The notes under the pieces were generated by a model, which worked only from the letters and a program-made list of their open reading frames with translations, had not been told where the DNA came from and did no database searches. The translations under genes and the position numbers were made by a program. From a virus, in IMG/VR virus record IMGVR_UViG_3300036806_000484, positions 1 through 64,000 of that record: a stretch of DNA of 64,000 nt. One strand, given 5' to 3'. Positions 10,441 through 51,194 of this stretch are shown in pieces (the first letter of the stretch is position 1; each line of letters begins with the position of its first letter).

Positions 10441-10554
10441 GTGAATTGACTCCTACGTGGGGCTTGGTATCTTGCTCGTCAGGCGAGTCGGGTGCTCCTG
10501 TTCCCGATCCCTGCCTGTAGCACCGGCCTGCGCTGCCCACCAGCGCGGGCCGAC

Positions 10555-10722: not shown

Positions 10723-10762
10723 GGGAGGGACGGTACTACGTTACGTCGAAACGCGCAAGTCC

Positions 10763-11747: not shown

Positions 11748-12153
11748 CGCGCGCTCGCTCGAGCCGGGCCTTGGCGACGGACTCGCCCTCGTTGATCGAG
11801 GAGTCGTAGACCTCGTCTGCCAGCTCCTGGTCGGGTTCACTGTCGAGGCCCAGCGGCGTCCAGTACCGCTCCTTCCGGAAGTCTTTCACCAGCTGCTTGA
11901 ACTCCGGATGCTGTGAGGCAAGCTCGGCGTCAACCTGCTTCCAGACCGCCGCGCCGGCGTCCTTCGTCGTGGTGAGGCCCAACCTGCGGCATACCTCGGA
12001 TACGGCGTGATCAACGAGTGGCCAGCCGATGAAGTGAGGGTTGGCCTGGCGTGCGATCGCGCAGATTGTTTCCCCGCCGCGGTCCTTCGAGTCGTTGGCG
12101 TAGCCGCCCTCGGCCCCGGACGTCTTTGCGTCGGAGATGTTGAAGTCAGCCAT
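11740..12153 (-). CDS. Endolysin, glycoside hydrolase family 108 (N-acetylmuramidase)
   Basis: This enzyme cuts the glycan chain of peptidoglycan at the end of infection. The N-terminal signature AEGGYANDSKDRGGET (catalytic Glu at about residue 15) is the GH108 hallmark EGGY-ND--D-GGET. The C-terminal half corresponds to the PG_binding_3 region. At 137 residues it is slightly shorter than usual. There is no signal peptide, so it needs a holin; the two membrane-protein genes directly upstream are candidates. The stop is TAG. Confidence 0.85.
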   Translation of the reverse strand: MADFNISDAKTSGAEGGYANDSKDRGGETICAIARQANPHFIGWPLVDHAVSEVCRRLGLTTTKDAGAAVWKQVDAELASQHPEFKQLVKDFRKERYWTPLGLDSEPDQELADEVYDSSINEGESVAKARLERARDA

Positions 12154-12580
12154 CGCCGCGCCGCGCGAACGGGACCAGCTTCCCGGCCAGGTTGCCGATC
12201 GTCGAGAACGCTGCTTGGGTGACGGTCTGCGAGAGCGACATACAGCCGGCGACGAAGAGCCCGCCAGCTGCGATCAGGGCGATGACCTTGGCGGACAAGG
12301 GGCTCGCGACGGCCATGCTGTCGAGCCACCACTGGGCCTTCACGACCTTGGTGAGGCCGAAGAAGAAGGCGCCCGCCACCGCGACGTGGGCCACGGTGAT
12401 GACGATGTTGAGCCCAGGGGACCGCATCTGTACCGCCGTCTGGACGTTCTCATCGGCCTTCTTCACCGCGTCGGCGATCTTAGTGAGGGTCGTCGACCGA
12501 CTGGGCCGTGGCTGCGGCACCGGCGGCGGCGTAGCTGGCCGCTCGAGTCCGGTCAGGTCCTTGGCGTCGCTGTCCGTCAT
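12146..12580 (-). CDS. Holin-like membrane protein (144 aa)
   Basis: A proline-rich cytoplasmic N-terminus (about 30 residues) is followed by two transmembrane segments (about 58-77 and 95-115) and a basic tail ending FARRGDG. It overlaps the endolysin gene by 8 bases and the upstream gene by ATGA. Size, topology and position fit a holin, although holins have no diagnostic motif. Confidence 0.65.
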   Translation of the reverse strand: MTDSDAKDLTGLERPATPPPVPQPRPSRSTTLTKIADAVKKADENVQTAVQMRSPGLNIVITVAHVAVAGAFFFGLTKVVKAQWWLDSMAVASPLSAKVIALIAAGGLFVAGCMSLSQTVTQAAFSTIGNLAGKLVPFARRGDG

Positions 12581-13116
12581 GCTGGGCTCCCCTCGCCGCG
12601 GTCGCCGCGGCCCGTGGTGGCGTAGTAGAGCCGGGCGATCCGCTCGCGCGCGATGCGCTCTTCCGTCGCCGTCGACTGCTGCACTGCCATGAACTCCGAC
12701 ACCTTCACCGTGAACTCGCTGATGACCGCGACGAGCCCGTCCAATCGCTCGAGCGCGGCGCCTCCCGGCTGCTCACTTGGCGGGTTGGCGGCTCCCTTGA
12801 CCAGTTTGAAAGCCAGACCGATCCCGCCACTGGCGGCTCCGATGCCGACGCCGATGCCTTCGATGAGCTGGGGTAGCGAACCCGACTGCCCGCTCTGGGA
12901 CTGCTGGAGCGCGTGGAGCACCGCCGGCGCGAAGATCACCACCAGCACCCCGGCTGTCGCGGACATGAGCACGTCGCGCAGTCTCATCATAGCGGCCTTC
13001 CACCGAGCATCGTTCCTCCTGGACGGTTTCAGGACGACTACGTGGTTAATCGGGGACGCCACAAAGTAGGGGGTTTCATGAAGGCGTCCACTAGGGTTGC
13101 TCCGAGTCGCGGTCAT
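12577..13116 (-). CDS. Membrane protein upstream of the holin (179 aa), possible second holin component
   Basis: Residues about 47-70 (LMSATAGVLVVIFAPAVLHAL) and 85-105 (a glycine-rich GIGVGIGAASGGIGLAFKL) are hydrophobic, and a helical tail follows (about 125-175). The ATG at 13116 overlaps the stop of the giant gene (ATGA). A start at the internal MMRLRDVL (about residue 42) is also possible. It is probably part of the lysis set, as a holin or antiholin; this is an inference. Confidence 0.6.
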   Translation of the reverse strand: MTATRSNPSGRLHETPYFVASPINHVVVLKPSRRNDARWKAAMMRLRDVLMSATAGVLVVIFAPAVLHALQQSQSGQSGSLPQLIEGIGVGIGAASGGIGLAFKLVKGAANPPSEQPGGAALERLDGLVAVISEFTVKVSEFMAVQQSTATEERIARERIARLYYATTGRGDRGEGSPA

Positions 13117-16100
13117 CGCCCCACCCTGAGATGTTGTGGATGAACGGGCCGCACCGGACGGGCGACTCCACCGCCGGCGTGGTTGGCTTCCTTCTGCTCG
13201 AGGATCGGCTGCCAGAGCGCCTTTTCCTGCGGTGTCCCCACGTTGTAGACGTTCTGGGCTTCCTCGAAGTTCAGCTGCCTGAAGCTGCTTACCCGCGGAT
13301 CCTCTTCCGTGCCCCGCATCGTGCTCAGGTACTGGAGCCTCGTGATCTGGCCGCTGTTCACCATTGAGTCAAGCGCCATCTGGGCGGTCTGGTCGCCGGC
13401 CTTGATCCGGCGTCCAATCTCCCGCCTGGCGTCGCGTAAGGCACCCTGTTCCGGTGTCGGTGTGTCCTGGCCGCGCCGCGAGAGGTAGTCGTGCATCATA
13501 TTCACTGCGTCGGACCCCTGATGCTCGGCCGGCGCCGACGTGATGCCCAGCATGCTCTGGACGTCCCCGCCGTACTGGAGCCCGATCGGCTTGAACTGCT
13601 TGATGGAATGGGCGAATTCCTGCTCCGCCACCTTCCCCGCGTAATGCGGCAACGCCTCGTTCGGCTCGCGCGGGCTATGGATCATTCGGCCGCTGAAGTC
13701 GCGGTTGTCGAGCACGTCGAAGATGGCCGTCAGCAGCGGGTGGAGCTTGTTCTTCACCGTCTGCCAGGGGCGGCTCTGGAAGTCGATCACGTCGCGCATG
13801 TAGGACGCGAACCAGCGCCGGTGCGGTGTACCGTCCGGGTTGAGCGTGCCGTCCTGGGGGAAGTAGAGGTCCTTCAAGCTCTCAGGCGGCTTCCCTGACG
13901 CCAGCATCTGATAGATGGCCCCGGCCATGGCGATCGTCGCCGGCAGGGCAATCGTGTAGGCCAGCGGATGCGTCAGTCGCGGGCGCTTCAGCGGCTCGCG
14001 CGCCTCGCCCTCGTCCTGGAAACCATCCTCGTCCGGCGCCGACTTCGGGCCCTTCGGGCGCTCGGAGGTGCGGCCATTGAGTAGGTGCCTTACGTCGGCC
14101 ATGCCTCCGCCCAATTCTTTTCCGGACCCCACGTTCCAGCCCAGCGAGCGCACCGTGACCATGCCGAGGTCGCGCATCAGCGGGTGCCAGAACAGGTAGT
14201 TTACCGACATCTGCCCGAGCCGGTTCTCGACCGAGTTCCAGACCTCGCGCGCGATCATCCTAGCGTCGTCGTCCGTCGCTCCGTCTGGCATTCTCGAGAG
14301 TTCGTAGCGCATCAGGTCGGCAAAGACGCCCAGTTTCTGGAGCGGCACCAGGCGCTCCATGATCGGGCGAGCCACCCACTCAATGAGCCCCGGCGCGGAC
14401 CACGCAGCCGCGCTCAGCGGGTGCTTCTGACGCAGCGCCTCCCAGAACTTGGCCGCAGCGCCGGTCTTATAGAAGCCGTGCTGATCGACGCGGCCGCCGG
14501 CCACCACGAGGGCGTGCACCAGCGCCTGCATCTCGGGATCCACGTTGCCGCCCGAGAGGTAAGCGTTCCTGAGCTTCACGCCGCGCAAGAGGTTGGCGAC
14601 CGGAGCGATCGGCGCCGCCGCCCAGGACGCCAGCGCCTTACCGGGATCTCCGCCCATCATCTGCTCGATGCCAAGCGCCACCTTCGAGACCACCACGTCC
14701 ATCGTTGTGAACATCGCGTGGAAGGCGGACAGGCCTAGCTGCACTTGGTTGAGCACGTTCCCTATGCCGCGGTACGCCGAGTAGAGCGCGTTCTGCTGGA
14801 GCCCGGGCGCGAGGGATCGGTTGATGGTGTCAGCGGCCTCGGGCTCGGCGTAGTAGTGACCGCGCACGACGAGGCCTCCGACGGCCTGGTCATACTGCGC
14901 TGTCTCGATCACCAGCGACGGCTTGATGTCGAGCAGCGGCCGCAGGTCAGGGTCCGTCTGGAAAATCTTCGTCAGCGCCGCCTTCACGGTGGGCGCGATC
15001 TTCTGCATCAACTCCGGCGCGTACATGAGTGCGTGCACCGCATTGGCGATCTGCTCCGCGCGCCCGCGCACATACTCCTTGTAACCCTGGGTCGCCGTGG
15101 CTTCGCTCCCCTGGAACCGTGCGTCGGCCAGGTCGCGCAACTCTGAGCGCATCGTTACCCTGCGCTGCCGCTCCGCATCGCGCGCCGCCTTGATCTTGGC
15201 GTTGTCGCGGTTGATGGCGCCGTGCTTGGATTGCCGACCACTCGCCTTGTCGATGACCGCATCCACCAACTTGTCGTGCGCCGTGGCCGGAGGAATCAGC
15301 TTCTCCATGAGGTGGTAGCGGACGTCGAGGATGTGCCCCAGTTCGTGCATCTTGACGCCGTGCACGCTGCCACTGCGCGTCGCCATCAGGTTCCCGCCCT
15401 CGGCGAATCCCGGCGCGCGACCGCCGATGTTTGGGCCGTGCTCATGCGTGACGCCGTGGCGCGCGATCCAGTCATCCAGCGCCTCGTTGACCATCCCATC
15501 GACCGCCTCGGAGACCTTCACGTAGGGCGACCCGAACACCGTGAAGATGTTGTCTTCGATCTTTTTCATGTCCTTGGGGGGCGGCATGAGCGCTGATCGG
15601 AAGACGAAGCGGCCAGCCCGCTTCCCTTGCGCCACCAGCTTGTGGGCGAGGATGTAGCGGTCCATCTCGTGGAGTTTGAGCAGGAGTAGATCGGCCGGGT
15701 TGGTGCTCACTGGCCAGCGGGATCCGGACTGCCGCGCCTCCTTCAGCATCTTTGCAGCTGTCTTCCCGTCGCCGGCCATGGCGGCCGACCGGAAGGCGTT
15801 GATCCGGTCCGCGTCCCCGTCGAAGATGCCATCCAGCGTGGTCGGGATCGACCGGTGCTTCGTGAACGACTTCCCTCCCTCGATCGGCCGCCGGCCTACG
15901 ACCTTGCCGATCTGGGCCTCGCGCGCTCCGCGCTCCCAGATATGCTCCATGTAGTTCTCGACCAGCACCTCGAGCTTGCCCGTGCCGAGCGACCGAACCT
16001 GCGCGATGCGCGCCTGGCGCATCCTGTCGAACAGTTCGGCGGCTGCGGGACGATCGCCGCCGTAGGTGTCCGGGCTCTCAGCTTGGTCGATGAACATGAG

Positions 16101-19100
16101 CCGCTGCCAGTCGGCCAGCTTCTCGAGCTGCGCACGGACCTGCTTCACCCGCTTCTTCGCGAGTTCGTCCCGACGCGCCAGCCGGCCCTGCATCTCGCGG
16201 TACATATCCGCCACCTGCCCAGCCTCGGGCGTCACGGTCGGCAGGGCGAAAGCCTCCTGCACCGCCGAGCCGATCTTCGCCAGCTTGTCCAGCGCAGTCC
16301 GGACCTCACCGGTGTGCATCGGGGGCGTGGCGCCCTCCGGGGCTGGCGAGACGTCGACAAGCGCCGGTACGTCCAGCGGCTTGCGCTTCGCGCGTGGCCG
16401 CACCGGAGGCGGCGCGGTGCCGCGGCTGACCGCCCTGGCTTCGTTCACCTCGCCGCCCTTGGCTGGGCCCTGCGCCGGCGGGAATCGATCGAGGAGTTTC
16501 TTGAGGTGCGTATCGTCGAGCGGGACGTACAAGAAGGTCCCCACCGGCTCATAGCGCGCGTAGCCCTTCAGCACTCCTTGGTGCTTCGAGAGCGTGGCGC
16601 CCTTGATCTGGACCTTGTCGTCTCGCCGCGGGTGCAGTATCCACTTCTCTCCGTTGGCGCCCATGATCGGGACGTTCTCGCCCAGGCGCAACGCGGCGAT
16701 AGCGTCCTCGGCCGTGGCGATCGTCGCGCCGGCGCCGAAGGCGCTCGCCACCCGGGAGCCCTCGGCTGGATTCAGTACCATGCCAGAGATGACCGCTCCG
16801 GTCTTGTCGTCGGTGAACTGGCCGTAGCGGCGGCTGCGCGCCTCGCCGTACTCGTGGCCGCGGACGCTCTGAATCGTGATCATGTGGTCGGTCACGTAGC
16901 CATTGAGCATCGCGCCCTTGCCGCCGGCTGCGTCGACGGTCTCGTACATCGTCAGCGGCGGCTTCTCTGAGAGCTTGATCGACCGAACGATCTCCCCGTG
17001 GGCCCTGGCTGTACGCCTGGCGGCGGAGGCCTCGGCTCGCTCCCCGGTGGTCAACGCCTCGCGGTTCGCCACCCAGAGCCGCATGACCTCTTCGGCTTCC
17101 TTCGTCGGCAGCATCATCACTTCGAGCAGGAACTTGCGGATGTCGATGCCGTCAGGACTGTGCTTCGGCACGTACATATCCGGCGCGCCATGGCCACCCT
17201 TCCGGAACTCCACGAAGGTCGAGCCGGTGAAGTGCTCCTTGATCGAGCCGGGCAGCTGCTGGTAGGCGAGGCGCGCGGCCTCGAGGGAGATGTCACCGCC
17301 CATCTCGAAGCGCTCGAGCGCGTCGGCGGCCGAACTGGACTCTGCGGACCCCGTGCTGCTGGCCCCCAGGGTTGACATGCGCGCCGCGATCGTCGCGGCG
17401 AACTTGCGCTCGCCCGCGGCGTTGGACGCCACCAGCTCGATGATGGGCTTCGACTTCTGCCCGGCGCGATCGACCCGGCCCAGTTCCTGCCAGAAGGTGT
17501 CGGCGCTCCATTCGTAGTCGGCCACCAGCATGTGACGCTGCTTGCCGTTCACGTCATGGAGGCTGATGCCGACCTTGCCGGCCGGGCTGATGAGCGCCAC
17601 CGGACGCGCGCCAGACTGGAACTCGGCCATCAGGGCGCCGCGCTTCTTCTGCGCCACGCGGCCGGTGATCGCCGCGACTTTGGAGGCGCCGAACCGGTCC
17701 TCGATCGTCCGGACCGGATCCCGCAGCGGCACTAGTTCGCGCGCGCGCTCCAGCAGCTTGGCCTTCTTGACCACCGCCTCCGGGATCTCTCCCAGGTCGA
17801 TGTATTCCGCGTCCTCGCCGGATCCTTCCTTCTCCACCTCGCGGGTGTTGATCCGGTTGATCGCGGCCTCGAGCCGCTTGTTGACCGGGACCTCGCTGTC
17901 AGCGGCAGACATGCCCTCTTCGAGGTCGGCGTCGCCTGCGACCGAGTGGACGCTGATCACCGGCTGGCGCCCGGCCTTCAGCGCGTCCTCGGCGGCATCG
18001 AGCACGTCGTCCAGGCGCAGGTCGAACAGCACCTGCTTGAGGTAGGACTGGATCATCGCCCGGTCGAGGCCCATCGTCTTCGTCTGCTTGTTCATCTGGC
18101 CGAACTTTCGGCCGGCGCGCACGATGTCGCGGGAAAGTTCTGCGGCCGTGTCGTACCGCTTCCGGTCCTTCACGCTCTTGGTGCTGTCGCCGAGCAGGTC
18201 GATCTCCTTGACCCGGAACACGACGCCGCCACGCCACAGGTCCCGCGAGATGAACTTGCCCTTGCCCTTCAGCTCCCGGACGATCTGCTCGGTCTCCGCC
18301 GGCGTCACGCGCGTCGTAAATACGTCCGGCCTGGTGCGCATGAACTTCTTCTTCTTGCCCGGCTCGATGTCCTGCCCCTCGGCGCCACCCGCCTTCACGG
18401 TGGGCCGCTCACCGACCTCGGCGTCCTCTCCCTGCTGTGCGGCCGCGGCGGCATCGGCCGCCTCCTGCTCTCCCTCGGGCTTCTCAGGTGGCGCGTGACC
18501 CGTCTTCCGGTCCACCCAGTCGCTGAAGCCGCCGATCGGCCATTCCTTCAGGCCGTAGAGGTAGGCGTATTCGTCGAGGGTAACGCCAGGCGTCGCCGTC
18601 AGGTAGGCAAACTTGCCGCCCTGCTCGAGCATCTGGTTGTGCAGTCCGCGCCACGCCATGCCGCGTCCGGCGAACTGGTTCTTGTAGAGGTGGGCCTCGT
18701 CCGCGATCCAGACCTTGGGGTTGATCTCGGCGAGGGCCGCGGCGTAGGCCTCGAGGTTCGTGGCCTGGACGAAGTAGATGGCCGCGCCCTTCGGTTGCGG
18801 CAGTGACTCCGTCCCCTTCTTCACGCCCTTGTAGTCGCTGACGCGCACGAAGGTCGCCGGGAACTCCCCATCTTCCTTCCCCGAAGATACCAGCCGGAAC
18901 TCGCGCATGGCGTCGTCAATGTTCACTTCGTTCTTGGTGGAGTAGATGATCGGCCCGTAGTCGCGGGCGATCGCCTCGAGGGCCAGCGCCGCTGCCTCGC
19001 GCGTCTTCCCGAGGCCCACGTTGTCGGCGACGAGGATGCCGTGGTCGTTCTCCCAGGCGGTCAGGCCGTGGAGAACGGCGTCGGCCTGTTCGTCTGAGAT

Positions 19101-22100
19101 GCCGCCTTGGTTACCGGGACGGCCCCATGCAGCTTCGACGAGTGGGGATTTGAACCCGGCGTCGATCGGCGGGGACGGCATCCCGCCGAGCGAGCGGGTC
19201 TCGACTACGAGTCGCGGGTGGGGACGCCGACGCTCGGCAGTTCCGAGTGGGTAAGCACTAAACACCGGGCTATCGTTTGCCGCCTCGAGCTCAGATCGGC
19301 GTTCCTCAGAGTCTCCTGTTCGGGGCTCAACTCTCCCCCGAGCCACTCCAGGAACCACTGCTTTCTTTCCTCCGGGCTGAGCGGCTTGGGATCCTTCTGG
19401 GGCCACCACGTCGGCACCCCGTCCGGTCCCAGTTGCAGCGCCGCCTCCGGATCCTGATGCGGGTCGCTCGGATCCACCGCTGGCCCCGCCTCGCTGGGCT
19501 GGAGCGGATGCTTCACGATTTCCAGCAGCCACTCCTCCAGCAGCTGGGGGCTCAACGGCTTGGGCGGTACCACCAGTCTCCTCCTCCACCAAGGCGGCGC
19601 GCGGCTTCTCTTTCGGCGGCGCGGTCTCGGTGCGCTTGACGGGGGCCACGTTCTCGGCTGGCTCATGTCCACCGGTCCGGCGCAGGTCGCCGGAGCCGCC
19701 GAGTCGCGCCACCGCGTCCATCCACTGCTCCCACGACGGCTTGGTGACCATGGCGATGTCGCCGCCCGTCGCATCGGTCGGTGGCTCCTTGTCGACCACC
19801 ACCATGACCGTCCCGAAGTCAGTGCCCCGCGTGCTGTAGGCGCCCTCCGGGCTCTCCAGATACATCCTAACGTGATAGTTCTCGCGCAGCCACTTCCGGA
19901 ACGGCGTTGAGCTGGGGTTCAGCGTCCCCTGCCCCATGATCGCCACCAGTCGGCCGCCGGGGATCAGGCTCTCCATGGCAGCATAGACGAACCTCTGCGC
20001 CACGTCGTTCGAGGCGAACGGCGTCGCACCGAAGCCGCTGTACTTACCGGTGTTGGCCGCGCCGAAGGGCGGGTTCATCACCACCGAGTTCACGCGCAGG
20101 CCGGTCAGGGGCAGTTCGAGTGCGCTTCCGGTCATCGGGTGGAAGCCAAGCTCCTCGAGCAGGTGCGCGCGCCGCGGGTCCAGCTCGTTGACGATGACGT
20201 TCTGCGCGGCCGGCAGCATCGAGATGAGGTTGCCGGTGCCGGCGGTCGGCTCCAGCAGTTTCTCTTGGGTGATGGCATCCGTCGCCCACTGCGCGGCCGC
20301 AGCCATCGGCAGCGGCGTCGAGAACTGCTGGTTCGCCAGCTTGTCGGAGCCGCGCGGCGAGAGCGGGACCATCTTCTCTTCGACCTCGCGCATCGCCTTC
20401 AGGTAGTCGATGATGCGCGTGCCATCCCACTTCATCAGGTCGATGCGACCGAAGGTGTTCTGGACCCAGCGGTTCAGCGCCACCTCGACCGCGTCGTACA
20501 GGTCGTCGGTGCGCCACGTCCCGCTCGCGTAGTCGCGACCGAGCACCTGGCCGGCCCACTTCCGGAGGTCCTGCGCCTTCTTGGGCAGCGAGCGGTCGAT
20601 CAGGCTGTTGAGCGCCGCGTCGGACAGCTTTGTGAGATCCGCGCTGCTCGCCCGCGTGGCGCCCTCTTCGATGACCGACTGGACGCCGCGCTTCGACGTG
20701 GCCCCGGGTGCCGGTGCCTCATTGAATTCTTCGGTCTCGGCCACCGACGGCGTGCTCAGCTTCTCGAGATCGGCGATGAGGACCTGAATGGCGCGCTTCG
20801 TCTGGCCCTCGCCGATGTCGACGTAGGCGCGATGAAGACTGCGATCCGCCTGCTCAATGTCGCCCCGCTCTAGATCGGCGGCGACCTCCTCGAGGTAGCG
20901 TGCGATGCGCCGCGGCTGACCGCTGGCAATGTCGAGCGCCTCGGCCGACAGGTTGCTGAGCCGCTGGCTGACCTTTTTCTCCGCGGGAGACGGCTCTACT
21001 ACTCCCTCCTGCGCGGCCATCTTCGCCAGTTCCTCGGCGCTCATGTCGTTCAGCATCCGCTCGTCGTCGGATCCCGGCTCGGGCGCCAGCCTGCGGATGA
21101 TCTCCTGGCGCGCGGCCTGCTGCTGCGGCGTCAACTGGTGCGGCAAGGTCTCCGTGGCAGGCTTCGGCAGCGGCTTCGGCGGCGCAACCATCCCCGGCTC
21201 GACCGCTGGCGGCAGGTCGCGCACGTTGCCGACCTCGCTCGCCGGCTCCGAGGGGATCGCCTCGGGCCGGTATACCACCTCGCCGTTAGGCCCGCGCGTC
21301 GGCACAACACGGCCCTTGTCCGCGGGCTTCGGCGCCGGCGCGGACCATCCGCCCATAGCCGTCATGGGGTGATCAGTGATCTGCTTTATCCTGGCCTTCA
21401 GGATTTTTACGATTTTCTTGGCCTGCTGAGTCTCCTCGTCTGTGGCGAGCCCTGCATCAAGCATCTCTTCATGGCGCGCTAGTTCCGCTTGGGCACGGGC
21501 CATGTCGAGCGAGGCGAACCCCTGCTCGTTCGCGCTCAGCGGCGGGGGCACCTTTACGGCTGGCGAGGCGGCAGTCTCCCCGTTGAAGAATGACTCGATC
21601 GCCTTCTGCGTCGGCTTGATACCGAACTTCTTCGCGGTCGCGCGGATCGCCGGGCCGTTGGTCACCGTGTAGTTGCCGGACTCGAAGGCCTTCCGCATCG
21701 CGGTCAGCACGCCCGGCACCTTGTCGAGCCCGTAGGCGTACTCGGTCGGCCTGGTGCGCACGGCGTTTTTCAGTTCCTCGCCGTAGACGGTCATCCAGCG
21801 GTCGACATTCTCGGCCCGACCCGTGAGGCCTTCCGGAACCGACTCGCCTGAGCGGTTGATCGTGTGCGGGGACTCCGGCGCCTGCCATCCCTTGGTCGGC
21901 GCTGCCGGTGCATAGGTCGGCGCTGCCACCGACGTCTCGCCTGGCTGCCCCACGCCGAGCACGCGCCGCAACTCGTTCAGCAGCTTCGTGCCCTTGAGCA
22001 TGATCTTCGATCCGTCCGTCTGCTCCAGCGACAACCGCGGGTTCTTGCCGCCCCAGTGCTCGAAGCCGGCCATCTTCTCCGAACCGCCGGTGCCGCCCAT

Positions 22101-25100
22101 GACGCCGAAAGCCTCGCTGGCGTGCTGGCGAAGCTCCTCGTCGCTCAGACCGTACTCCCGCGCCACGTCCCACTTCGGGGATCCGCCGCTGGTTGCGCGC
22201 CACACGGCGCGATCGTTCCGGTCGGTGATGGCTTGCTCGCGCGCGATCTCGTCGTTGGAGTGGCCGTGCTCACTCTCTCTCAGTTCGTGGTCGATGACGC
22301 TGGCACGGGCCCGCAGGATCTCCAGCACTCCGCCGCGCTCACCGGTCTGCTCTCCTGGCGTGGCGCGCGAGCTCTCGAGGTGCAGACGTTCAAGTTCGCG
22401 GCGCGCGTTGACCGTATCGCCGGTGTGCGCCAGCCGCGCGGCCGTGTCGATCCGGGAAGACGCCGCGCGCAGCGCGGGGTCGGCGATCGCGTCGGTCTGC
22501 GGGCCTTCTAGCGCGGCGCGCATGTCCTTCATCTGGTCGCGCACCTGTCCCGAGTAGGCGTTGCCCCATGACTTGTCGTATTCGGCCAACATCTGCTGGG
22601 CGTCGTCGGCCGACTCATGGAAGCCGCCGCGTGCGCTGACCCGGCCCACCTCATCAGGCGCGGCCATCGCCTCGATCGTTAGCCCGCGCAATTCGCCCAT
22701 GCGGTTCTCTACCAGGCTGTGAAGCGGCATCATCGCCTGGGCGGGCGTCTGGTGTTCTGGCTGCCGCAGGGCCGCTTCTTCGCGCGGCATGTGCTCGATC
22801 GCCTCGGGGAAGAATTCCGGCTGCTGCTTCGCCTCTTCCTCCCGCTGCTGGATCGCGTGCTCCAGGGCGTCGTCCGGCTCATGCGCTGCGGCCATTTCGT
22901 CGTAGAGCGCGCGCGCGTCCCTCACCCGGCCGCCGCGCATCGCGTCGAGGATCCGGTCCTGGTAGTCCCGCATGTCGCCACGCTCGAACGGATAGGCGTC
23001 GTCGCCCAACGTCGGCCTGTTCACCGACTCGTCGCGCTCGAGCGCCGTGGTGCCGGCCCTCTGCGCCTCGCCGCGCTGTTCCTCTGAGATTCCAGCGACC
23101 TCGGTCTTGGCCTGCTCCAGCGGCTTCCCGCCGCCCAGCAGGTCCTCGAGCTTGAAGGGGGCCGCTGCTGCGCCGCTGCTCGGCACTGCGCCCGGAGCGA
23201 CCGGCGGTGGGGCTGTGGCTGGCGTGGGAGCCGCTTCAGGCTCCGTCGTGGCGGGGCTCTGGATGAACGCCGGGATCTCAGCCGGTGGCTCCGTCGGCGG
23301 GGCCGGAATATCGATCGGCTGGGTCGGCTTCCCTATGATGGACTGCCAGTCGCCGCCGGCCAGGCGCGCCTCGCTGGCCCGCTCCGCCACAGAAGGCGAG
23401 ACGTCGGGCCAGATGTGCGAGGAGCCGTCCGACAGCCAGACCGTGGCGCCGTTGCCGTTGCGCTCCACCCGATCGATGGTCGGGCGCTCGGCGGCGGCTT
23501 CCTGTGGGGCCGCAGGAGGGGCTTCGGCTGCCGGAGCCACAGGTGGCGGGGTTTCGGCCGCGGGCGGCTCCTGCACGCTGGGAGCCCTTGGGGGAGCCGC
23601 TTCCGGAGCCGTCACGCCCGGCATGTTCGTAGCTTCCGTCTGATACGCTGCCAACGGGTCGCCTGCCTGCTGTATCCCTCTCTGGATAGCCGACCGCGCC
23701 TTCGCCACGGCTGCGCGCTCTGCCGGCGTCTTGGCAGCGCGAAGCTGGTCGTCTGTGGCGCGCAGCTGCTCCATCAGCGGGGCGAGGCGAGCCTGGACGG
23801 CCTGCTGATCGGACAGCGCCGCATCACGAGCCTTTGTCATCAGCCGGTAGGCATCTGGATCCGGTTGCGCGCCTGTGTCCGGGTGATACTGCATCACGGC
23901 TCGGCGATAGGCGCTCTTCACGTCCTCGACGCTGGCGTTGGCGTCCAGCCCGAGCGTGTAGAACGGGTCGCCGGATCCCGCGCGCACGATCGGCGAGGCG
24001 GGCGACGTCAGCGACTTGCCGGCCGTCATGATCTGGGCCTGCTGCACCGCGCCCGCCCACGCCTGCCGGGCCCGCTCCATGGTGGCTCGAGCTGCGGCCC
24101 CGATGAAGGGCTCCGCTGCTCCGAAGCCGACACCGGCCGCAGTCGCCTGGCTGACGTTCTCGCCCAGCTGCTCGGCCGTCGGGCGATCGGGGCCAGCGAG
24201 CTCCTTGCCCGCCTCGTAGGTGCCGAAGCGCGCACCCTCGGTCACGCCGGACTCCAGCGCTCGCTCTCCGATCGGCTGGGCGGCGTGGGCGACGGACGCA
24301 GCGACGTCGGCTGCCGCTGGCGCTCCGGACTCCAGGACAGCCTCTGTCAGCGGCGCTGCTTCTCCGCCCACGGCCATCGGCAGCATTCCAGCGGCTACGC
24401 GGGCGAGGTCGCCGGCGCCTTGGGCAATGCGCTCGGGAAGTGGAGCGCCTTCGTCGGTCCTCCCGACCTCGTCAATGGCGCGGCGCTTCATCTCCGACAT
24501 CGCCAACTGATCTTCGAGCGCCTGAGACCCTGTGGCCGCGGCGCCCGCCTTCAGTAGTGCTTCTCGCACCGGCTCCCCAAAATCCGACCACGCCTGTCCC
24601 ACACCTCTCGCGATGGAGTTCTCGCCAAGATTGCGCTCGTACCCTTCCCTCGTCGCCGGCTCGGCCGCCGCCGCAGCTTCCTCCGCTTTCCCGCGGCGGA
24701 TCGTGTCACCCATCGCCCCTTCAACGAGGTCGGCCTGGTCAGGCCGTTCGCCGAACGGCCGCGCCTGGACGGGCGGCATCGTAGCGGCCGGAACCGTCTT
24801 CGGCGGCGTGAGATCCATCCCCGGAGTCACCGGCGCGCGCCCGAACCTCTCGTTCTGCGCCTCGGCACCGAGCGTCGGACCCTCGGCTGCCGGCGGCTGG
24901 AAGCGCACCGGGGCGACATCGAGCGGCTGTATCTCGCGGGTGTCGGCCTGCTGGGTGGCTTCGGCGGCGGCGGGGCGCGGTTCGAGCGCGGGCGCGGCGT
25001 GCGCGCTGGCCTCGAGAGAGTCGAGAAGCTGCTGGCCGCCGGCTGCGGTGGGCACGGGCTGGCGGCGCTGGATGTCGGTAACGGGTTTGAGGAGGTCCTC

Positions 25101-25169
25101 AATGCGAAAAGCAGGGCCTTTGCCCTGCTCTCCGGAAAGAAGGTCCTCGAGCCGGAACGGTGTGCTCAG
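13113..25169 (-). CDS. Giant polyvalent virion-type protein: J-domain, N6-adenine methylase, strawberry-notch helicase, zincin
   Basis: A protein of about 4,018 residues (3,980 from the inner GTG at 25055). Numbering from that GTG: a J-domain with YHPD at about 390; an N-6 DNA methylase with EPTAGTGN at about 1602 and NPPFG at about 1661; a strawberry-notch-type superfamily 2 helicase with Walker A VGLGKT at about 2013-2018, DEAH at 2119 and QELGRVDRAGQ at about 2521; a zinc-protease motif HELGH at 3237; and a long helical C-terminus. Such polyvalent proteins, including the methylase/helicase DarB of phage P1, are thought to be injected with the DNA and protect it. The likely start is CTG 25169 behind GGAGGG, because LEDLL-type motifs (PFRLEDLLSG, AFRIEDLLKP) precede the GTG and recur inside (PFKLEDLLGG). 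A segment near 19265-19577 seems to be coded in another frame. Confidence 0.85.
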   Translation of the reverse strand: MSTPFRLEDLLSGEQGKGPAFRIEDLLKPVTDIQRRQPVPTAAGGQQLLDSLEASAHAAPALEPRPAAAEATQQADTREIQPLDVAPVRFQPPAAEGPTLGAEAQNERFGRAPVTPGMDLTPPKTVPAATMPPVQARPFGERPDQADLVEGAMGDTIRRGKAEEAAAAAEPATREGYERNLGENSIARGVGQAWSDFGEPVREALLKAGAAATGSQALEDQLAMSEMKRRAIDEVGRTDEGAPLPERIAQGAGDLARVAAGMLPMAVGGEAAPLTEAVLESGAPAAADVAASVAHAAQPIGERALESGVTEGARFGTYEAGKELAGPDRPTAEQLGENVSQATAAGVGFGAAEPFIGAAARATMERARQAWAGAVQQAQIMTAGKSLTSPASPIVRAGSGDPFYTLGLDANASVEDVKSAYRRAVMQYHPDTGAQPDPDAYRLMTKARDAALSDQQAVQARLAPLMEQLRATDDQLRAAKTPAERAAVAKARSAIQRGIQQAGDPLAAYQTEATNMPGVTAPEAAPPRAPSVQEPPAAETPPPVAPAAEAPPAAPQEAAAERPTIDRVERNGNGATVWLSDGSSHIWPDVSPSVAERASEARLAGGDWQSIIGKPTQPIDIPAPPTEPPAEIPAFIQSPATTEPEAAPTPATAPPPVAPGAVPSSGAAAAPFKLEDLLGGGKPLEQAKTEVAGISEEQRGEAQRAGTTALERDESVNRPTLGDDAYPFERGDMRDYQDRILDAMRGGRVRDARALYDEMAAAHEPDDALEHAIQQREEEAKQQPEFFPEAIEHMPREEAALRQPEHQTPAQAMMPLHSLVENRMGELRGLTIEAMAAPDEVGRVSARGGFHESADDAQQMLAEYDKSWGNAYSGQVRDQMKDMRAALEGPQTDAIADPALRAASSRIDTAARLAHTGDTVNARRELERLHLESSRATPGEQTGERGGVLEILRARASVIDHELRESEHGHSNDEIAREQAITDRNDRAVWRATSGGSPKWDVAREYGLSDEELRQHASEAFGVMGGTGGSEKMAGFEHWGGKNPRLSLEQTDGSKIMLKGTKLLNELRRVLGVGQPGETSVAAPTYAPAAPTKGWQAPESPHTINRSGESVPEGLTGRAENVDRWMTVYGEELKNAVRTRPTEYAYGLDKVPGVLTAMRKAFESGNYTVTNGPAIRATAKKFGIKPTQKAIESFFNGETAASPAVKVPPPLSANEQGFASLDMARAQAELARHEEMLDAGLATDEETQQAKKIVKILKARIKQITDHPMTAMGGWSAPAPKPADKGRVVPTRGPNGEVVYRPEAIPSEPASEVGNVRDLPPAVEPGMVAPPKPLPKPATETLPHQLTPQQQAARQEIIRRLAPEPGSDDERMLNDMSAEELAKMAAQEGVVEPSPAEKKVSQRLSNLSAEALDIASGQPRRIARYLEEVAADLERGDIEQADRSLHRAYVDIGEGQTKRAIQVLIADLEKLSTPSVAETEEFNEAPAPGATSKRGVQSVIEEGATRASSADLTKLSDAALNSLIDRSLPKKAQDLRKWAGQVLGRDYASGTWRTDDLYDAVEVALNRWVQNTFGRIDLMKWDGTRIIDYLKAMREVEEKMVPLSPRGSDKLANQQFSTPLPMAAAAQWATDAITQEKLLEPTAGTGNLISMLPAAQNVIVNELDPRRAHLLEELGFHPMTGSALELPLTGLRVNSVVMNPPFGAANTGKYSGFGATPFASNDVAQRFVYAAMESLIPGGRLVAIMGQGTLNPSSTPFRKWLRENYHVRMYLESPEGAYSTRGTDFGTVMVVVDKEPPTDATGGDIAMVTKPSWEQWMDAVARLGGSGDLRRTGGHEPAENVAPVKRTETAPPKEKPRAALVEEETGGTAQAVEPPAAGGVAAGNREASAPAQRGGASGGSERPASGSGGGAATGTGRGADVVAPEGSQAAQPGGKKAVVPGVARGRVEPRTGDSEERRSELEAANDSPVFSAYPLGTAERRRPHPRLVVETRSLGGMPSPPIDAGFKSPLVEAAWGRPGNQGGISDEQADAVLHGLTAWENDHGILVADNVGLGKTREAAALALEAIARDYGPIIYSTKNEVNIDDAMREFRLVSSGKEDGEFPATFVRVSDYKGVKKGTESLPQPKGAAIYFVQATNLEAYAAALAEINPKVWIADEAHLYKNQFAGRGMAWRGLHNQMLEQGGKFAYLTATPGVTLDEYAYLYGLKEWPIGGFSDWVDRKTGHAPPEKPEGEQEAADAAAAAQQGEDAEVGERPTVKAGGAEGQDIEPGKKKKFMRTRPDVFTTRVTPAETEQIVRELKGKGKFISRDLWRGGVVFRVKEIDLLGDSTKSVKDRKRYDTAAELSRDIVRAGRKFGQMNKQTKTMGLDRAMIQSYLKQVLFDLRLDDVLDAAEDALKAGRQPVISVHSVAGDADLEEGMSAADSEVPVNKRLEAAINRINTREVEKEGSGEDAEYIDLGEIPEAVVKKAKLLERARELVPLRDPVRTIEDRFGASKVAAITGRVAQKKRGALMAEFQSGARPVALISPAGKVGISLHDVNGKQRHMLVADYEWSADTFWQELGRVDRAGQKSKPIIELVASNAAGERKFAATIAARMSTLGASSTGSAESSSAADALERFEMGGDISLEAARLAYQQLPGSIKEHFTGSTFVEFRKGGHGAPDMYVPKHSPDGIDIRKFLLEVMMLPTKEAEEVMRLWVANREALTTGERAEASAARRTARAHGEIVRSIKLSEKPPLTMYETVDAAGGKGAMLNGYVTDHMITIQSVRGHEYGEARSRRYGQFTDDKTGAVISGMVLNPAEGSRVASAFGAGATIATAEDAIAALRLGENVPIMGANGEKWILHPRRDDKVQIKGATLSKHQGVLKGYARYEPVGTFLYVPLDDTHLKKLLDRFPPAQGPAKGGEVNEARAVSRGTAPPPVRPRAKRKPLDVPALVDVSPAPEGATPPMHTGEVRTALDKLAKIGSAVQEAFALPTVTPEAGQVADMYREMQGRLARRDELAKKRVKQVRAQLEKLADWQRLMFIDQAESPDTYGGDRPAAAELFDRMRQARIAQVRSLGTGKLEVLVENYMEHIWERGAREAQIGKVVGRRPIEGGKSFTKHRSIPTTLDGIFDGDADRINAFRSAAMAGDGKTAAKMLKEARQSGSRWPVSTNPADLLLLKLHEMDRYILAHKLVAQGKRAGRFVFRSALMPPPKDMKKIEDNIFTVFGSPYVKVSEAVDGMVNEALDDWIARHGVTHEHGPNIGGRAPGFAEGGNLMATRSGSVHGVKMHELGHILDVRYHLMEKLIPPATAHDKLVDAVIDKASGRQSKHGAINRDNAKIKAARDAERQRRVTMRSELRDLADARFQGSEATATQGYKEYVRGRAEQIANAVHALMYAPELMQKIAPTVKAALTKIFQTDPDLRPLLDIKPSLVIETAQYDQAVGGLVVRGHYYAEPEAADTINRSLAPGLQQNALYSAYRGIGNVLNQVQLGLSAFHAMFTTMDVVVSKVALGIEQMMGGDPGKALASWAAAPIAPVANLLRGVKLRNAYLSGGNVDPEMQALVHALVVAGGRVDQHGFYKTGAAAKFWEALRQKHPLSAAAWSAPGLIEWVARPIMERLVPLQKLGVFADLMRYELSRMPDGATDDDARMIAREVWNSVENRLGQMSVNYLFWHPLMRDLGMVTVRSLGWNVGSGKELGGGMADVRHLLNGRTSERPKGPKSAPDEDGFQDEGEAREPLKRPRLTHPLAYTIALPATIAMAGAIYQMLASGKPPESLKDLYFPQDGTLNPDGTPHRRWFASYMRDVIDFQSRPWQTVKNKLHPLLTAIFDVLDNRDFSGRMIHSPREPNEALPHYAGKVAEQEFAHSIKQFKPIGLQYGGDVQSMLGITSAPAEHQGSDAVNMMHDYLSRRGQDTPTPEQGALRDARREIGRRIKAGDQTAQMALDSMVNSGQITRLQYLSTMRGTEEDPRVSSFRQLNFEEAQNVYNVGTPQEKALWQPILEQKEANHAGGGVARPVRPVHPQHLRVGR
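19265..19577 (-). other. Out-of-frame coding-like segment inside the giant gene
   Basis: Between the methylase and helicase domains the giant frame reads a low-complexity Gly/Ala/Ser stretch with poor third-position GC. The neighbouring frame reads a protein-like sequence with almost uniform G or C at third positions and two copies of a motif (PPKPLSPQLLEEWLLEI and DPKPLSPEERKQWFLEW). It joins the giant frame cleanly after ALVEEE at one end and near FSAYPLG at the other. This suggests two compensating indels or an overprinted frame. Confidence 0.6.
25106..25130 (-). terminator. Hairpin with U-run inside or just before the giant gene
   Basis: On the minus strand AGCAGGGC and GCCCTGCT form a perfect 8-bp stem around AAAG, followed by TTTT. 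If the giant gene starts at GTG 25055 this is an intergenic intrinsic terminator. If it starts at CTG 25169 the hairpin lies within codons 14-21. The short U-run makes it at most a weak terminator. Confidence 0.4.
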
Positions 25170-25170: not shown

Positions 25171-26247
25171 CTACTGCCCTCCGAACGTCACATTGAATCC
25201 TTCGCTGCGCATCTTGTCGCGAATCTGCTGTGGATTCAAGCCCTGAGTCTGGAGATCCATGGCGCGTCGCTGCGCCACTGCCGGGTCTGTCACGTCCGCG
25301 CGCGTCGACGTCGAACTCGGCTGAGTCATCTGGGGCCTCATCGTCGGCGCAACGGTCGTCGGTCTCACCGCCGGTGCCGGGGCGACTGGAGCGGCCGCGC
25401 TCGGCGCAGTCGCGGGAGCCGCGGTCGTATCGGCCGGAACGGTCTCATCTGCCTGGCCACCCGTAGCGATGCGGCCGATCGCCTTCACCCTGCCCCACAG
25501 CCCGGTCGGCTGAACGGTGGTCGGAACGACTGGTGGGGGCGTGACAGTGGGCGCGGCGGGTGCGGAGGGTGTCATTCTGCCGCCCTTCACCAGGTTGACT
25601 GTCTCGTCGTACATCTGGTCGTAACTGGTGCCATCCGGAACCGCCATCATCCGGCCGCCGACCATCTGCGTCTTCGTGTGTTGGTCGGTCACCATCCGCC
25701 ACGCCTGGGAGAATGTCGGCGCGCCGCGACCGCCGCCAGTACCGGTACCTGATCCGCGCCGGTTGTTGTATCCGGCCTGCGCGAGCGCCCGATCCGCCTC
25801 GTCCTGCCAGAGCTGGCGGCGCTGGTCGTCATCGAGGTTCGCGCGGTCCTGCGCGCCCTTCTTGAGTAGGAAGTCGGGATCTTGGTCGGGCCGAAGAATG
25901 TATCCCGACGCCGCGGGGCCCCCGATCGCGACGTAACGATCGTCTGGGTGTGCTGGCGTGCCTGGCGTCGTGGCGGTCGTCGTGAGATCCGCGCCCGCGC
26001 CGGCGTTGGCCATCTGATCGCGCGAGAGCGGCGTCGTCTCGGTGACGGCAGGCGTCGCGGCCACCACAGGCGGAGCGCCGACGCCGCCGCCGTGCAGCGC
26101 GGCGAATTCGGAGAACCTCGCGGCGTCCTGCTGCGCTTGGCGCGCGCGCGTCTCGGCGTCCTGCTGATCCTGACCGGCAATCTGGCCGATCCTGAACAGG
26201 CCGTTGCTCAACGCCAGTCCGGCACCAGCCCTCGCAAGGTTGTCCAT
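25171..26247 (-). CDS. Probable internal virion protein (358 aa)
   Basis: An N-terminal helical region (residues 1-50, Gln-rich) is followed by low-complexity Thr/Ala/Pro linkers and a conserved-looking block (about 95-225, with DDRYVAIGG and GYILRPDQDPDFLLKKGAQD). I do not recognise the family. Its position between other low-complexity virion genes and the giant polyvalent gene suggests an ejected internal protein. It ends in TAG, two bases before the proposed CTG start of the giant gene. Confidence 0.6.
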   Translation of the reverse strand: MDNLARAGAGLALSNGLFRIGQIAGQDQQDAETRARQAQQDAARFSEFAALHGGGVGAPPVVAATPAVTETTPLSRDQMANAGAGADLTTTATTPGTPAHPDDRYVAIGGPAASGYILRPDQDPDFLLKKGAQDRANLDDDQRRQLWQDEADRALAQAGYNNRRGSGTGTGGGRGAPTFSQAWRMVTDQHTKTQMVGGRMMAVPDGTSYDQMYDETVNLVKGGRMTPSAPAAPTVTPPPVVPTTVQPTGLWGRVKAIGRIATGGQADETVPADTTAAPATAPSAAAPVAPAPAVRPTTVAPTMRPQMTQPSSTSTRADVTDPAVAQRRAMDLQTQGLNPQQIRDKMRSEGFNVTFGGQ

Positions 26248-43734: not shown

Positions 43735-46164
43735 CTACCGCGCGGTCGAAGCCACCAACGGCGCGGGGTTGCTCGGTCTCGTCGGAGGGACGTGCTGCCC
43801 TCCGCTCAGAACTTGCGCGGCGATGCCGCGCCGATCGATGGGACTACCAGTTCGAGCCGGCTGCCCCGGCGCGGGGGGAGGACCAGCCGGTGCGCCCGGC
43901 GCCCCAGCGGCACGACGCCCGTTCTGGGCTGGCGGCTGGGCCTGGTCATCCGTGATCCCCTCGTCGGCCATGACCTTGTCGAGCTGGCTCTGGGTCAGGT
44001 CCTGACCCTTCAGGGCGAGGTTGACGGTCATCGGCTGTGGCTGCGCGCCGCCGCCGGCCATCTGCTGCTGCCACTGGAAGTAGAGTTGCTGCCTGAGCTT
44101 GGCGGCGATGCGCGCCACCGGATCGGCCGTCTCGTCCTGGGTGATCTCGGACAGAGCGGCCAGATGGGAGGCGAGGTCGTCGTCCTGGAGCCGGGGATAC
44201 CGGGACTCGAGGATCATGAACAACTGCTGCGCCGCCTTCGCGACATTCGGGCTGGCGATGTTGTCGTCGTTCATGCCGGTGCGCGTGCGGTACGTCTCCG
44301 CGAGGAAAAGGATCTGGGCGGAGATCGTCTTGGCGCGCCGGCGCGCGACGGTGCCTGGATCGCCGGCGTCATCGAAGATCGAGTGGTCCGGGTACGCCTT
44401 ACGGGCCTCGGGGGTGAGCAGGAAGGGCTTGCCGTCCGCGCCCTTGGTCTGCATCAGCTCGAGGATTTCCTGCGCGCGAAGTTCGGGGCTGGCCCCGAAG
44501 GCGTTCACCAGCTTGTAGTTGGGCGGGGTGTCTGAGAGCTTTGTCCAGTCGACCCACGGCTCCGCGAGGTAGGCCCAGTTGTCTCCGGTCGCCTTCAGCG
44601 CCATTCCGACGTCGCCATACGCCTTGAACTGCTTCCAGCAGCCGCGGGCGAAATCACACGCCGCGCGCCTGAATCGCAGGTTCACCGGACCATGGATCGA
44701 GTTGTCGGCCTGCTGGAGCGCCACGATCGCCCGGTAGGCGATGCGGGATCCCGGGGCCTCGCCGCGCGACGCGGCTTGGTATCCGCCGGCAGAGTAGATC
44801 GCCTGGCGCAGGTCTCTGATCTCGGCATCGAGGCCGGTCAGGATCTCGACCGGGAACCTCATCATCTCTGGGCGCCACGCGCCCGCGCTCGGCTCGATCT
44901 CGAGTATCTGGTAGCCGCCGATGTCGGCCATGTCGCCGTCGATCGCGCCCGCAGGCGAGACGATCGGCGCGTCCATCATGCGGTTGATGGCTTCCCACCG
45001 CTTGGACTTGGCGATGTTGAGGTCGACCTGGAGCGGATCGAGGTCGCCCACCCACGGCGCCCCGTGGATGTCGTTGCCGCGGTGGTGGGAGTAGAAGTTG
45101 GTCAGCGAGAAGTCGGCACCCGGTAGCTCCTGGTCGGCCAGCGCGACCGCAGCGCTCGCCCGGCCCTGGCCGCGGAGCAGATCCACCGCGCCCGGGACGG
45201 CCACGATCTGGAGCCGGCCGCGCGGGTAGTCCGTCAGCACCCCGGGAGCGGTCTCCCGGCAGATTATGACGATCTGCTCTTCTTCCTCCGGGTCGCCGCG
45301 CCGGTACGATGTGACCGGGCTGCCGTGCACGTTCAGGCCCATCATGTTCCAGTTACGTGCGATACGCTGGAATTCGGCCACCGACGGGATCCGCATCGTC
45401 CCTTCGAGCGTCCTGGACTCCGGGATGTGGTCGAAGGCCTGCTTCACCAAGCTGAGTGGCAGCACCCGCCCGTATGAGGTCCAGATCCACGACCCGCGCT
45501 TGGCGCCGCGATCGAAAACGGTGTCGAAGGGGTTCCCGAGCCAGCAATCGATCATCCCAGCGCCAATCGGCTGGATCATCTGTCCGCCGGCGCTCTGCTG
45601 GTCGCCATAAGCGATCGGTTCGTAGAGGTCGTTCCCATCCTCGCGCCAGTACCGGTGCACCGGGCAGAACCCGGCAGGCACGCCCATGAACATCGCGTCA
45701 GCGAACAGGCTATTGAGGTCCTGCTCGTCGGCGATCGTGTTCATCATCAGCGTGTCTACGAGGGCCTTCTGGCGGGACTTACGGTCGGAGCGGGCGTCGG
45801 TGTAGTAGTTGAGCGGCATCGTCGTGTGGTGCGCCACGGCGTTCTCGACGACCACGCGCAGGATGTTCTCGGTCTTCCGGAACTCCGAGACCATCCGCGG
45901 GATCTCGACGCGGGCGCCGTAGACGATGTCGGCCCACTGGAATTCACCGCCGTCGATGTGCAGGAGGTACTTCTCGCTGAGCAGGTCCCGCTCGCGCCGC
46001 GCCTGAAGCCCGGCCTGGTGCGCCTCGACAACCCGTCGCGCATCATCCGCTTTCGAGCGCCTGCCCAGGGCGTCCACTTGGTTCGAACTGGGCATGGGTG
46101 ACACCACCGGCGGAGGCGGTGCTGGGCGCTGCGGTTGCTGGATGAGAGCCGGCGCTGCGGTCAT
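43735..46164 (-). CDS. Portal protein
   Basis: This is the 809-residue head-vertex protein through which DNA is packaged. Portal-like features are the helix-rich N-terminal region (RRVVEAHQAGLQARRERDLL, NYYTDARSDRKSRQKALVDT), a beta-rich stretch around residues 280-340 (EEEEQIVIICRETAPGVLTD) and a long helical C-terminus with Ala/Pro-rich tail. Size and position before scaffold and capsid fit N4-like portals (about 760 residues). It starts at ATG 46164 behind GGGAGG, just after a structured leader. Confidence 0.8.
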   Translation of the reverse strand: MTAAPALIQQPQRPAPPPPVVSPMPSSNQVDALGRRSKADDARRVVEAHQAGLQARRERDLLSEKYLLHIDGGEFQWADIVYGARVEIPRMVSEFRKTENILRVVVENAVAHHTTMPLNYYTDARSDRKSRQKALVDTLMMNTIADEQDLNSLFADAMFMGVPAGFCPVHRYWREDGNDLYEPIAYGDQQSAGGQMIQPIGAGMIDCWLGNPFDTVFDRGAKRGSWIWTSYGRVLPLSLVKQAFDHIPESRTLEGTMRIPSVAEFQRIARNWNMMGLNVHGSPVTSYRRGDPEEEEQIVIICRETAPGVLTDYPRGRLQIVAVPGAVDLLRGQGRASAAVALADQELPGADFSLTNFYSHHRGNDIHGAPWVGDLDPLQVDLNIAKSKRWEAINRMMDAPIVSPAGAIDGDMADIGGYQILEIEPSAGAWRPEMMRFPVEILTGLDAEIRDLRQAIYSAGGYQAASRGEAPGSRIAYRAIVALQQADNSIHGPVNLRFRRAACDFARGCWKQFKAYGDVGMALKATGDNWAYLAEPWVDWTKLSDTPPNYKLVNAFGASPELRAQEILELMQTKGADGKPFLLTPEARKAYPDHSIFDDAGDPGTVARRRAKTISAQILFLAETYRTRTGMNDDNIASPNVAKAAQQLFMILESRYPRLQDDDLASHLAALSEITQDETADPVARIAAKLRQQLYFQWQQQMAGGGAQPQPMTVNLALKGQDLTQSQLDKVMADEGITDDQAQPPAQNGRRAAGAPGAPAGPPPAPGQPARTGSPIDRRGIAAQVLSGGQHVPPTRPSNPAPLVASTAR

Positions 46165-47699: not shown

Positions 47700-48045
47700 T
47701 TCCCCCGTTGTCTTCTAGTTCGTCGTATTGCTGCCACACCGGCTTCGGCGTCATCGCCTCGCGCTTGATCGCTTCCCATGACTCGCCGGCAAGGTGGCGC
47801 TTGTAGGCCTCGTTGCGCTGCGCGCGCCGGATACTCGGATCCGCAAAGGCGTTGAGATGCTCGGCCAGGTCGTCGGGCATCGACTCGATTTTCTTTCGTG
47901 GCTCGCGCGGGACCTCGGCTAGGCCGTGCTCGGCGCGGTCGACGCGCTTGACGTGGTCGAGCAGTTTGCCGTTCTGCTCGATCAGCCGATCGCGCTCGCC
48001 GCAAACGGCCTCGAAGGCGCCACGCGACACCCAAGGCCACTTCAT
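47677..48045 (-). CDS. Hypothetical protein (122 aa) following the terminase
   Basis: The N-terminal MKWPWVSRGAFEAVCGERDRL is followed by a coiled-coil-like stretch and a helical second half with repeated charged residues. It overlaps the terminase gene by ATGA. Small coiled-coil proteins next to terminase genes are common, but I recognise no family. Confidence 0.6.
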   Translation of the reverse strand: MKWPWVSRGAFEAVCGERDRLIEQNGKLLDHVKRVDRAEHGLAEVPREPRKKIESMPDDLAEHLNAFADPSIRRAQRNEAYKRHLAGESWEAIKREAMTPKPVWQQYDELEDNGGNGAEPPR

Positions 48046-50843: not shown

Positions 50844-51193
50844 GAAATCCAGTCCTCGGGCACCGGGACGGATGCGCCCATGCACACGCCGCAGGGATTG
50901 CTGGTTGTCACGCTACGGCATTTGCGACAAATCCTGTCGCCCGCGCGGTAGTTGCCGCCGCGGCGAGGACGTGGTACCGATGGCGCAGCTACCGCACGCT
51001 TGGTGTACGGCCGCCGCGGCGGGATCGATCGGTGGATGGGCTTCTTGCGGATCCAGCCGCGGGCCTTGGCGTGCAGGTGAATGGAGGAGTCGCTGATGCC
51101 GTGGCTATGGGCGATCGCGTCGACGGTTTCTTCGCCAGCCTCGTACCGTGGCTTGATCTCGTCCCAGGACTCCTGCCTGATGCGGGGAGCCAG
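50840..51193 (-). CDS. HTH / zinc-knuckle protein directly upstream of TerL (terminase-small-like), probable CTG start
   Basis: The N-terminal HTH (SWDEIKPRYEAGEETVDAIA, HGISDSSIHLHAKARGW) resembles small-terminase or resolvase-type DNA-binding modules. A basic linker and a CRKC/CGVC zinc knuckle follow. There is no ATG, GTG or TTG near the beginning. CTG 51193 lies one base after the upstream TAG with GAGGA at the right distance. It overlaps TerL by GTGA. It may be the true small terminase or an accessory; the gene at 55350-56276 is the other candidate. Confidence 0.6.
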   Translation of the reverse strand: MAPRIRQESWDEIKPRYEAGEETVDAIAHSHGISDSSIHLHAKARGWIRKKPIHRSIPPRRPYTKRAVAAPSVPRPRRGGNYRAGDRICRKCRSVTTSNPCGVCMGASVPVPEDWIS

Positions 51194-51194
51194 G

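Follow-up and report, generated by a model that had tools for sequence, protein, structure and literature searches.

A giant DarB-like polyvalent protein gene with a predicted J-domain in a probable tailed phage

The giant gene and its domains

The virus record IMGVR_UViG_3300036806_000484 is 68.8 kb long, and its first 64 kb, analysed here and called the window, hold a gene for a giant protein, P0001, in which a predicted J-domain shares one polypeptide with an N6-adenine methylase, a helicase and a probable metallopeptidase. The virus is probably a tailed phage of podovirus-like type. A first-pass annotation of the sequence had described a frame of about 4,000 residues at 13113-25169; the coordinates are right, and the strand, which it left unstated, is minus. 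The gene runs from 25169 to 13113 as 4,018 sense codons and a stop, with the following features.

13113..25169, minus: giant polyvalent protein gene P0001; plausible start CTG 25169, fallback GTG 25055
25178..25182, minus: GGAGG, resembling a ribosome-binding site, 8 bases 5' of CTG 25169
25137..25157, minus: FRLEDLL, motif copy 1, residues 5-11, candidate capsid-targeting signal
25089..25109, minus: FRIEDLL, motif copy 2, residues 21-27
24015..24407, minus: Ala/Gly-rich stretch with mildly hydrophobic segments (from sequence and hydropathy), residues 255-385, directly before the J-domain
23796..23969, minus: predicted J-domain, residues 401-458
23877..23885, minus: HPD motif of the J-domain, residues 429-431
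22995..23657, minus: Pro/Ala-rich probable linker (from composition), residues 505-725, between the J-domain and the enzymes
23136-23156, minus: FKLEDLL, motif copy 3, residues 672-678, within the linker
19770..20363, minus: N6-adenine DNA methylase, residues ~1603-1800, with LEPTAGTGN, and NPPF at 1699
17055..19223, minus: Strawberry-notch/SNF2-class helicase, residues ~1983-2705, with GLGKT at 2052, DEAH at 2157, and GRVDRAGQ
14880..15422, minus: probable zincin metallopeptidase region (from motif and domain order), residues 3250-3430, with HELGH at 15333-15347
13899..13955, minus: most hydrophobic segment of P0001, residues 3739-3757, in the part near the C-terminus that holds LPD38 in relatives

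P0001 is a single coherent gene and no artefact. By our own arithmetic about 90 stops would be expected by chance in 4,018 codons of this composition, and the coding bias is uniform along the frame: the guanine plus cytosine (GC) content of codon positions 1, 2 and 3 is 0.70, 0.49 and 0.85 overall, and that of the third position stays at 0.77-0.89 in each full block of 400 codons, the one with the J-domain included. These two observations rule out a chance open reading frame. The earliest ATG, GTG or TTG in the frame is GTG 25055, from which the program-made list of open reading frames counts 3,980 residues. CTG 25169 immediately follows the stop codon of the gene upstream, and we regard it as the plausibly better placed start.

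The HPD region can be assigned a J fold with firm confidence from sequence and modelling, with HPD between helices II and III. Pfam PF00226 matches residues 402-448 at 30.5 bits (E 4e-7; gathering cut-off 27.8), and a J-domain search restricted to the virus record returned the P0001 match at E 2e-10. In an alignment with 48 viral J-domains the HPD, the helix II lysine, the AYR core and the LG are retained, and the basic residues of helix II and nearly all consensus positions of the domain are kept. The AlphaFold2 model made with this alignment as input has a mean predicted local distance difference test score (pLDDT) of 85.6 and places helix II at 30-44, followed by the HPD loop and a long helix III. 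When the model was compared with the PDB by Foldseek, the top matches were almost all annotated J-domain structures, at a probability of ~1.0 and with weak E-values of 0.02-1 (best 0.024), the fold being so small; viral matches were for the most part DnaJ proteins. An HPD motif of some other, non-J kind is ruled out by the Pfam match, the model and the Foldseek matches. The first-pass annotation had proposed an HPD-type J-domain here and structure prediction as a way to check it, and the predicted structure upholds the proposal.

Since an Ala/Gly-rich stretch precedes it and a Pro/Ala-rich linker follows, the J-domain better fits a tethered recruiting module than a part of the enzymes. The partner it recruits would be the DnaK of the host, because the virus record contains no DnaK and no second J-domain.

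The methylase and the Strawberry-notch-type helicase, both also named in the first pass, are firm assignments by profile and motif. The methylase matches phrog_9133 (E 7e-23) and a DNA methyltransferase PHROG (E 5e-11), and the helicase matches Helicase_C_4 (E 8e-22) and AAA_34 (E 5e-7), both above the Pfam cut-off. Adenine methylase comes before SNF2-class helicase, as in the antirestriction protein DarB of phage P1. A general Pfam scan, with no LPD36-specific profile run, gave no match at the place of LPD36 before the methylase.

The HELGH region is probably a zincin, a claim of the first-pass annotation that agrees with motif and order and finds no counterpart in Pfam, either in a scan of the whole protein or with the region in isolation. 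HELGH stands at residue 3275 and is followed by RAEQIANA, which resembles a third metal ligand and recurs as a pattern in relatives; in relatives with the same domain order an HExxH lies at the matching relative place and precedes a comparable Glu-containing helix. A single-sequence AlphaFold2 model of the region was unusable (pLDDT 40).

The three copies of F[RK][LI]EDLL in P0001 are the only ones in 6.2 million six-frame residues of collected sequence. Repeats of this kind are common at the N-termini of such giants, most of which have a short motif twice within the first ~75 residues: in 15 of 21 with distinct N-termini, no more than 1 of 100 shuffles attained the internal repeat score of the first 75 residues. 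The repeat of P0001 is weaker (5 of 100 shuffles reach its score). The motif differs between phage groups, and the 15 do not amount to 15 independent cases, because several are related to each other. The loci listed for the repeat are the window and L002, L086, L089, L095, L098-L101, L105-L107, L116 and L120; Pfam placed no family above cut-off on seven such N-termini. Because the N-terminal 30 residues of P1 DarB are sufficient for loading into the capsid (PMC9024508), we regard the repeats, by analogy, as candidate capsid-targeting signals.

Relatives of P0001 and the novelty of the fusion

A methylase, an SNF2/Strawberry-notch helicase and a metallopeptidase in one injected giant are an established kind of protein. 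Polyvalent proteins as described by Iyer et al. 2017 (PMC5512222) include the methylase-helicase dyad, in which the methylase is thought to modify incoming duplex DNA as the helicase translocates along it; they carry a zincin-like metallopeptidase in ~36% of cases, are found in late-gene context, and often string together unrelated host-directed domains. P0001 shares with them the fusion of methylase and helicase, the probable zincin, the size and the late-gene position, and differs by its added J-domain. As in their definition, several domains of unrelated activity stand on one polypeptide of a mobile element, and terminase and portal genes lie upstream on the same strand:

43735..46164, minus: portal protein (phrog_156, E 8e-5; P22_portal, E 3e-4, below cut-off)
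48042..50885, minus: terminase large subunit with an intein-like insert, early in the virion module

The position of the portal gene shows that the giant gene lies on the downstream side of this module. Genes for the small and large terminase and the portal, and a series of probable virion genes that have no assignment, are co-transcribed with the P0001 gene, which comes last in the series, before genes for a RecE-like exonuclease, an HNH nuclease, a separate DNA methylase and DnaB.

Close relatives of P0001 were found neither among phages by megablast nor in peptide-pattern scans of viral contigs (with the whole of P0001, the methylase-helicase part, the portal and a P0001/L099 helicase alignment). 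A tblastn search with the C-terminal 1,233 residues had no phage match, and the portal and a possible capsid protein of the virus had none either. Searches based on the methylase returned giants of ~2,900-6,500 residues (some frames cut by locus ends) from Bacteroidales phages and prophages, a Ruegeria phage, and Vibrio, Falsiroseomonas, Rhizobiales and Ammonifex genomes, together with many plasmid methylase-helicase proteins of 1,470 residues. The nearest relative found is a 3,589-residue frame in an Ammonifex metagenome-assembled genome (L099), with 31% identity over 780 residues of the helicase and 38% in the methylase. It has the same order of methylase, helicase and HExxH, whereas it lacks a J-domain and has a C-terminal LPD38; hhalign of the P0001 C-terminus against it reached no significance. 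A Rhizobiales metagenome-assembled genome (L176) repeats the order methylase, helicase, HExxH. Gp3 of Bacteroides phage BS-TP4 (L002, 1511-17686), annotated as hypothetical, is a 5,391-residue methylase-helicase giant whose gene lies directly upstream of the portal gene.

The first-pass annotation had also likened P0001 to DarB, and the likeness holds for plan and place while direct similarity is very weak. Both proteins have the methylase N-terminal to an SNF2-class helicase, and DarB is proposed to protect the injected DNA in cis against type I restriction; DarB has 2,255 residues against 4,018 and no HPD, HExxH or J-domain match. Compared directly, the two align at E 0.003 over 58 residues of the C-part of the helicase, with no direct methylase match, and the N-terminal methylase region of DarB matches the methylase of other giants at E ~3e-4. 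In the Bcep22-like podovirus BcepIL02 a gene for a 4,667-residue 'DarB-like antirestriction' protein (gp70) ends the virion module, the same plan as here, and its 4,515-residue homologue in the related phage JC1, gp69, was identified by mass spectrometry in virions purified on caesium chloride (CsCl), with 51 unique peptides (PMC9144972). Both are, like P0001, giants with methylase and helicase whose genes close the virion module. In contrast, their similarity to P0001 is weak (methylase E 5e-4), the JC1 helicase is of HepA type, and no J-domain is reported for them. Membership of the virus in Lessievirus (Bcep22-like podoviruses) was considered and ruled out, the giant alone being weakly similar to BcepIL02.

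The first pass had called the combination of domains undescribed. For the giant with methylase, helicase and zincin this does not stand, as PMC5512222 describes it; for the J-domain it does. As far as sequence comparison reaches, what is new is the J-domain: it adds one unusual domain to an otherwise established architecture, and only one sequence with it is known. A J-domain hidden Markov model (HMM) run over the methylase-bearing loci found none in the same frame as other giants, among ~20 distinct comparable giants, and among 150 frames of at least 1,000 residues in 254 loci it matched only P0001 and a frame in L084. The main text of PMC5512222 makes no mention of DnaJ, J-domain or Hsp70 (open papers were searched, supplementary files were not). 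Free-standing phage J-domain proteins are known (PMC7824862; PMC12619734). What an Erythrobacter phage paper calls a 'J domain' refers to the tip attachment protein J, which is unrelated.

Two scans of viral contigs for J-domains gave ~145 loci; because they favour canonical peptides and yielded the best 80 loci each, rarer fusions could have been missed. Nearly all of these J-domains are N-terminal in ordinary DnaJ-type proteins of ~150-440 residues, the exceptions being frames in L084 and L191, and the plasmid and huge-phage matches that we followed up are small chaperone-type genes or frames. The L084 frame (9908-13294; 1,129 residues) has an N-terminal J-domain and is free of methylase, helicase and HExxH motifs. 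Next in length among the sampled viral J-domain loci comes a frame in L191, with 733 residues and an internal J-domain.

Possible roles of the J-domain

We favor a model, to which we give a probability of roughly one half, in which P0001 is a virion-carried, DarB-like antirestriction giant whose J-domain acts as a tethered co-chaperone for its own chain. That it is packaged in the virion and binds DnaK, and on which client and when, are points that we infer. P0001 would be carried in the particle and delivered with the DNA, and its methylase-helicase pair would shield the entering genome from restriction by the host, the part that DarB plays in P1. By established reasoning a protein of this size is unable to pass portal and tail while folded, and the giant chain would be threaded through them largely unfolded. 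The HPD of the J-domain would stimulate the DnaK of the host, with this same polypeptide as the client; as our first choice, DnaK would capture the chain arriving in the cytoplasm, help it to refold and possibly help to draw it in. The first-pass annotation had likewise proposed that DnaK is recruited and may refold the protein after ejection, which is plausible; the computed results also fit a role in assembly or in manipulating DnaK. We rank self-directed chaperoning first, with action after ejection slightly ahead of action during assembly, and see manipulation of DnaK as the main rival.

The model draws support from the place of the gene, which closes the virion module as do those of the DarB-like giants of BcepIL02 and JC1. 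Rki of phage RB43 is a precedent for a phage J-domain engaging host DnaK (PMC3486835). It is phage-encoded like the J-domain of P0001 and acts on host DnaK, whereas it is a separate protein made early after infection and not part of a multidomain giant.

Several observations weigh against the model. Relatives of the same size lack a J-domain, which argues that ejecting and refolding giants does not generally need one, and the J-domain of P0001 is known from only the one sequence. LPD38 (PF18857), detected at the C-terminus of two relatives, in Ruegeria phage 45A6 and in L099, was sought in P0001 and not found. Finally, no protein of the window other than the giant significantly matches BcepIL02, and no structural gene does.

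The J-domain bears on the question of how phages pass proteins of several hundred kilodaltons through a channel of a few nanometres and end up with active enzymes in the host. That a giant brings along a domain for recruiting DnaK suggests that a chaperone of the host takes part, and a co-chaperone would join the parts list of polyvalent proteins.

The J-domain could act earlier, during assembly, bringing DnaK to the nascent giant, keeping the chain soluble and competent for loading and handing it to the prohead. Its closeness to the N-terminal repeated motif fits such a role, given the sufficiency of the DarB N-terminus for loading (PMC9024508), as does the prediction that J-domain proteins of jumbo phages aid folding and assembly (PMC7824862). 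However, relatives equally large manage without a J-domain, and we hold this alternative only tentatively.

An effect on the host is unlikely, though it has precedents. The J-domain would divert DnaK, for instance with sigma-32 stabilised as by Rki, or disturb phage sensing that depends on DnaJ. Rki is toxic via DnaK, stabilises sigma-32 and helps RB43 grow (PMC3486835); detection of phage by bNACHT25 requires host DnaJ (PMC12169576); and the habit of polyvalent proteins of stringing together host-directed domains (PMC5512222) would accommodate an effector. Yet a few dozen injected copies (~40 of DarB in P1, PMC9024508) seem too few to titrate an abundant chaperone, and no effector-specific feature was found in P0001.

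We consider it more doubtful still that the J-domain aids ejection itself. Here the N-terminus would enter first, and the J-domain would load DnaK where the channel opens into the cell, from where DnaK would ratchet in and refold the rest. Motors of J-domain and Hsp70 drive mitochondrial import and offer the analogy; if true, phage protein delivery would include a chaperone-driven step.

The occurrence of the domain in P0001 alone among the giants examined could mean that it was captured recently and persists as a remnant that does not serve as a chaperone. The retained HPD, the basic residues of helix II, nearly all consensus positions and the uniform coding bias speak against this, and we judge it improbable.

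In lambda replication host DnaJ and DnaK remodel helicase complexes, and the J-domain of SV40 large T does likewise next to its helicase. An early remodelling of host or phage helicase complexes by the J-domain of P0001 is nevertheless highly improbable: the phage has DnaB-type helicase genes, but the fused helicase is the translocase of an antirestriction dyad and no replicative helicase, and some 1,500 residues separate it from the J-domain. Large T resembles P0001 as a viral protein with an N-terminal J-domain and a helicase on one chain, whereas it is an unrelated protein of a eukaryotic virus, with a replicative helicase and no methylase.

Neighbouring genes

The insert of the large terminase spans ~residues 105-470, matches LAGLIDADG_3 above cut-off and resembles inserts, homing endonuclease and hedgehog/hint proteins among them, that occur in unrelated phage genes. 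Two different genes, at 55350-56369 and 50840-51604, both match small-terminase PHROGs (phrog_4044 and phrog_1206).

DnaB-type helicase genes lie at both ends of the record (window 1-1506 and record 67672-68820, the latter being L180 3773-4921). They are 75% identical in DNA over 1,068 bases, as diverged copies that a circular genome would place side by side.

A separate N6/N4 DNA methylase is encoded at 3483-4640, its catalytic half and its motif I half split by a region free of matches; with it the phage may also methylate its own DNA before packaging. A HerA/FtsK-like ATPase encoded outside the virion module, at 5669-7459, matches a terminase PHROG as well as the HerA/mads_8 defence models.

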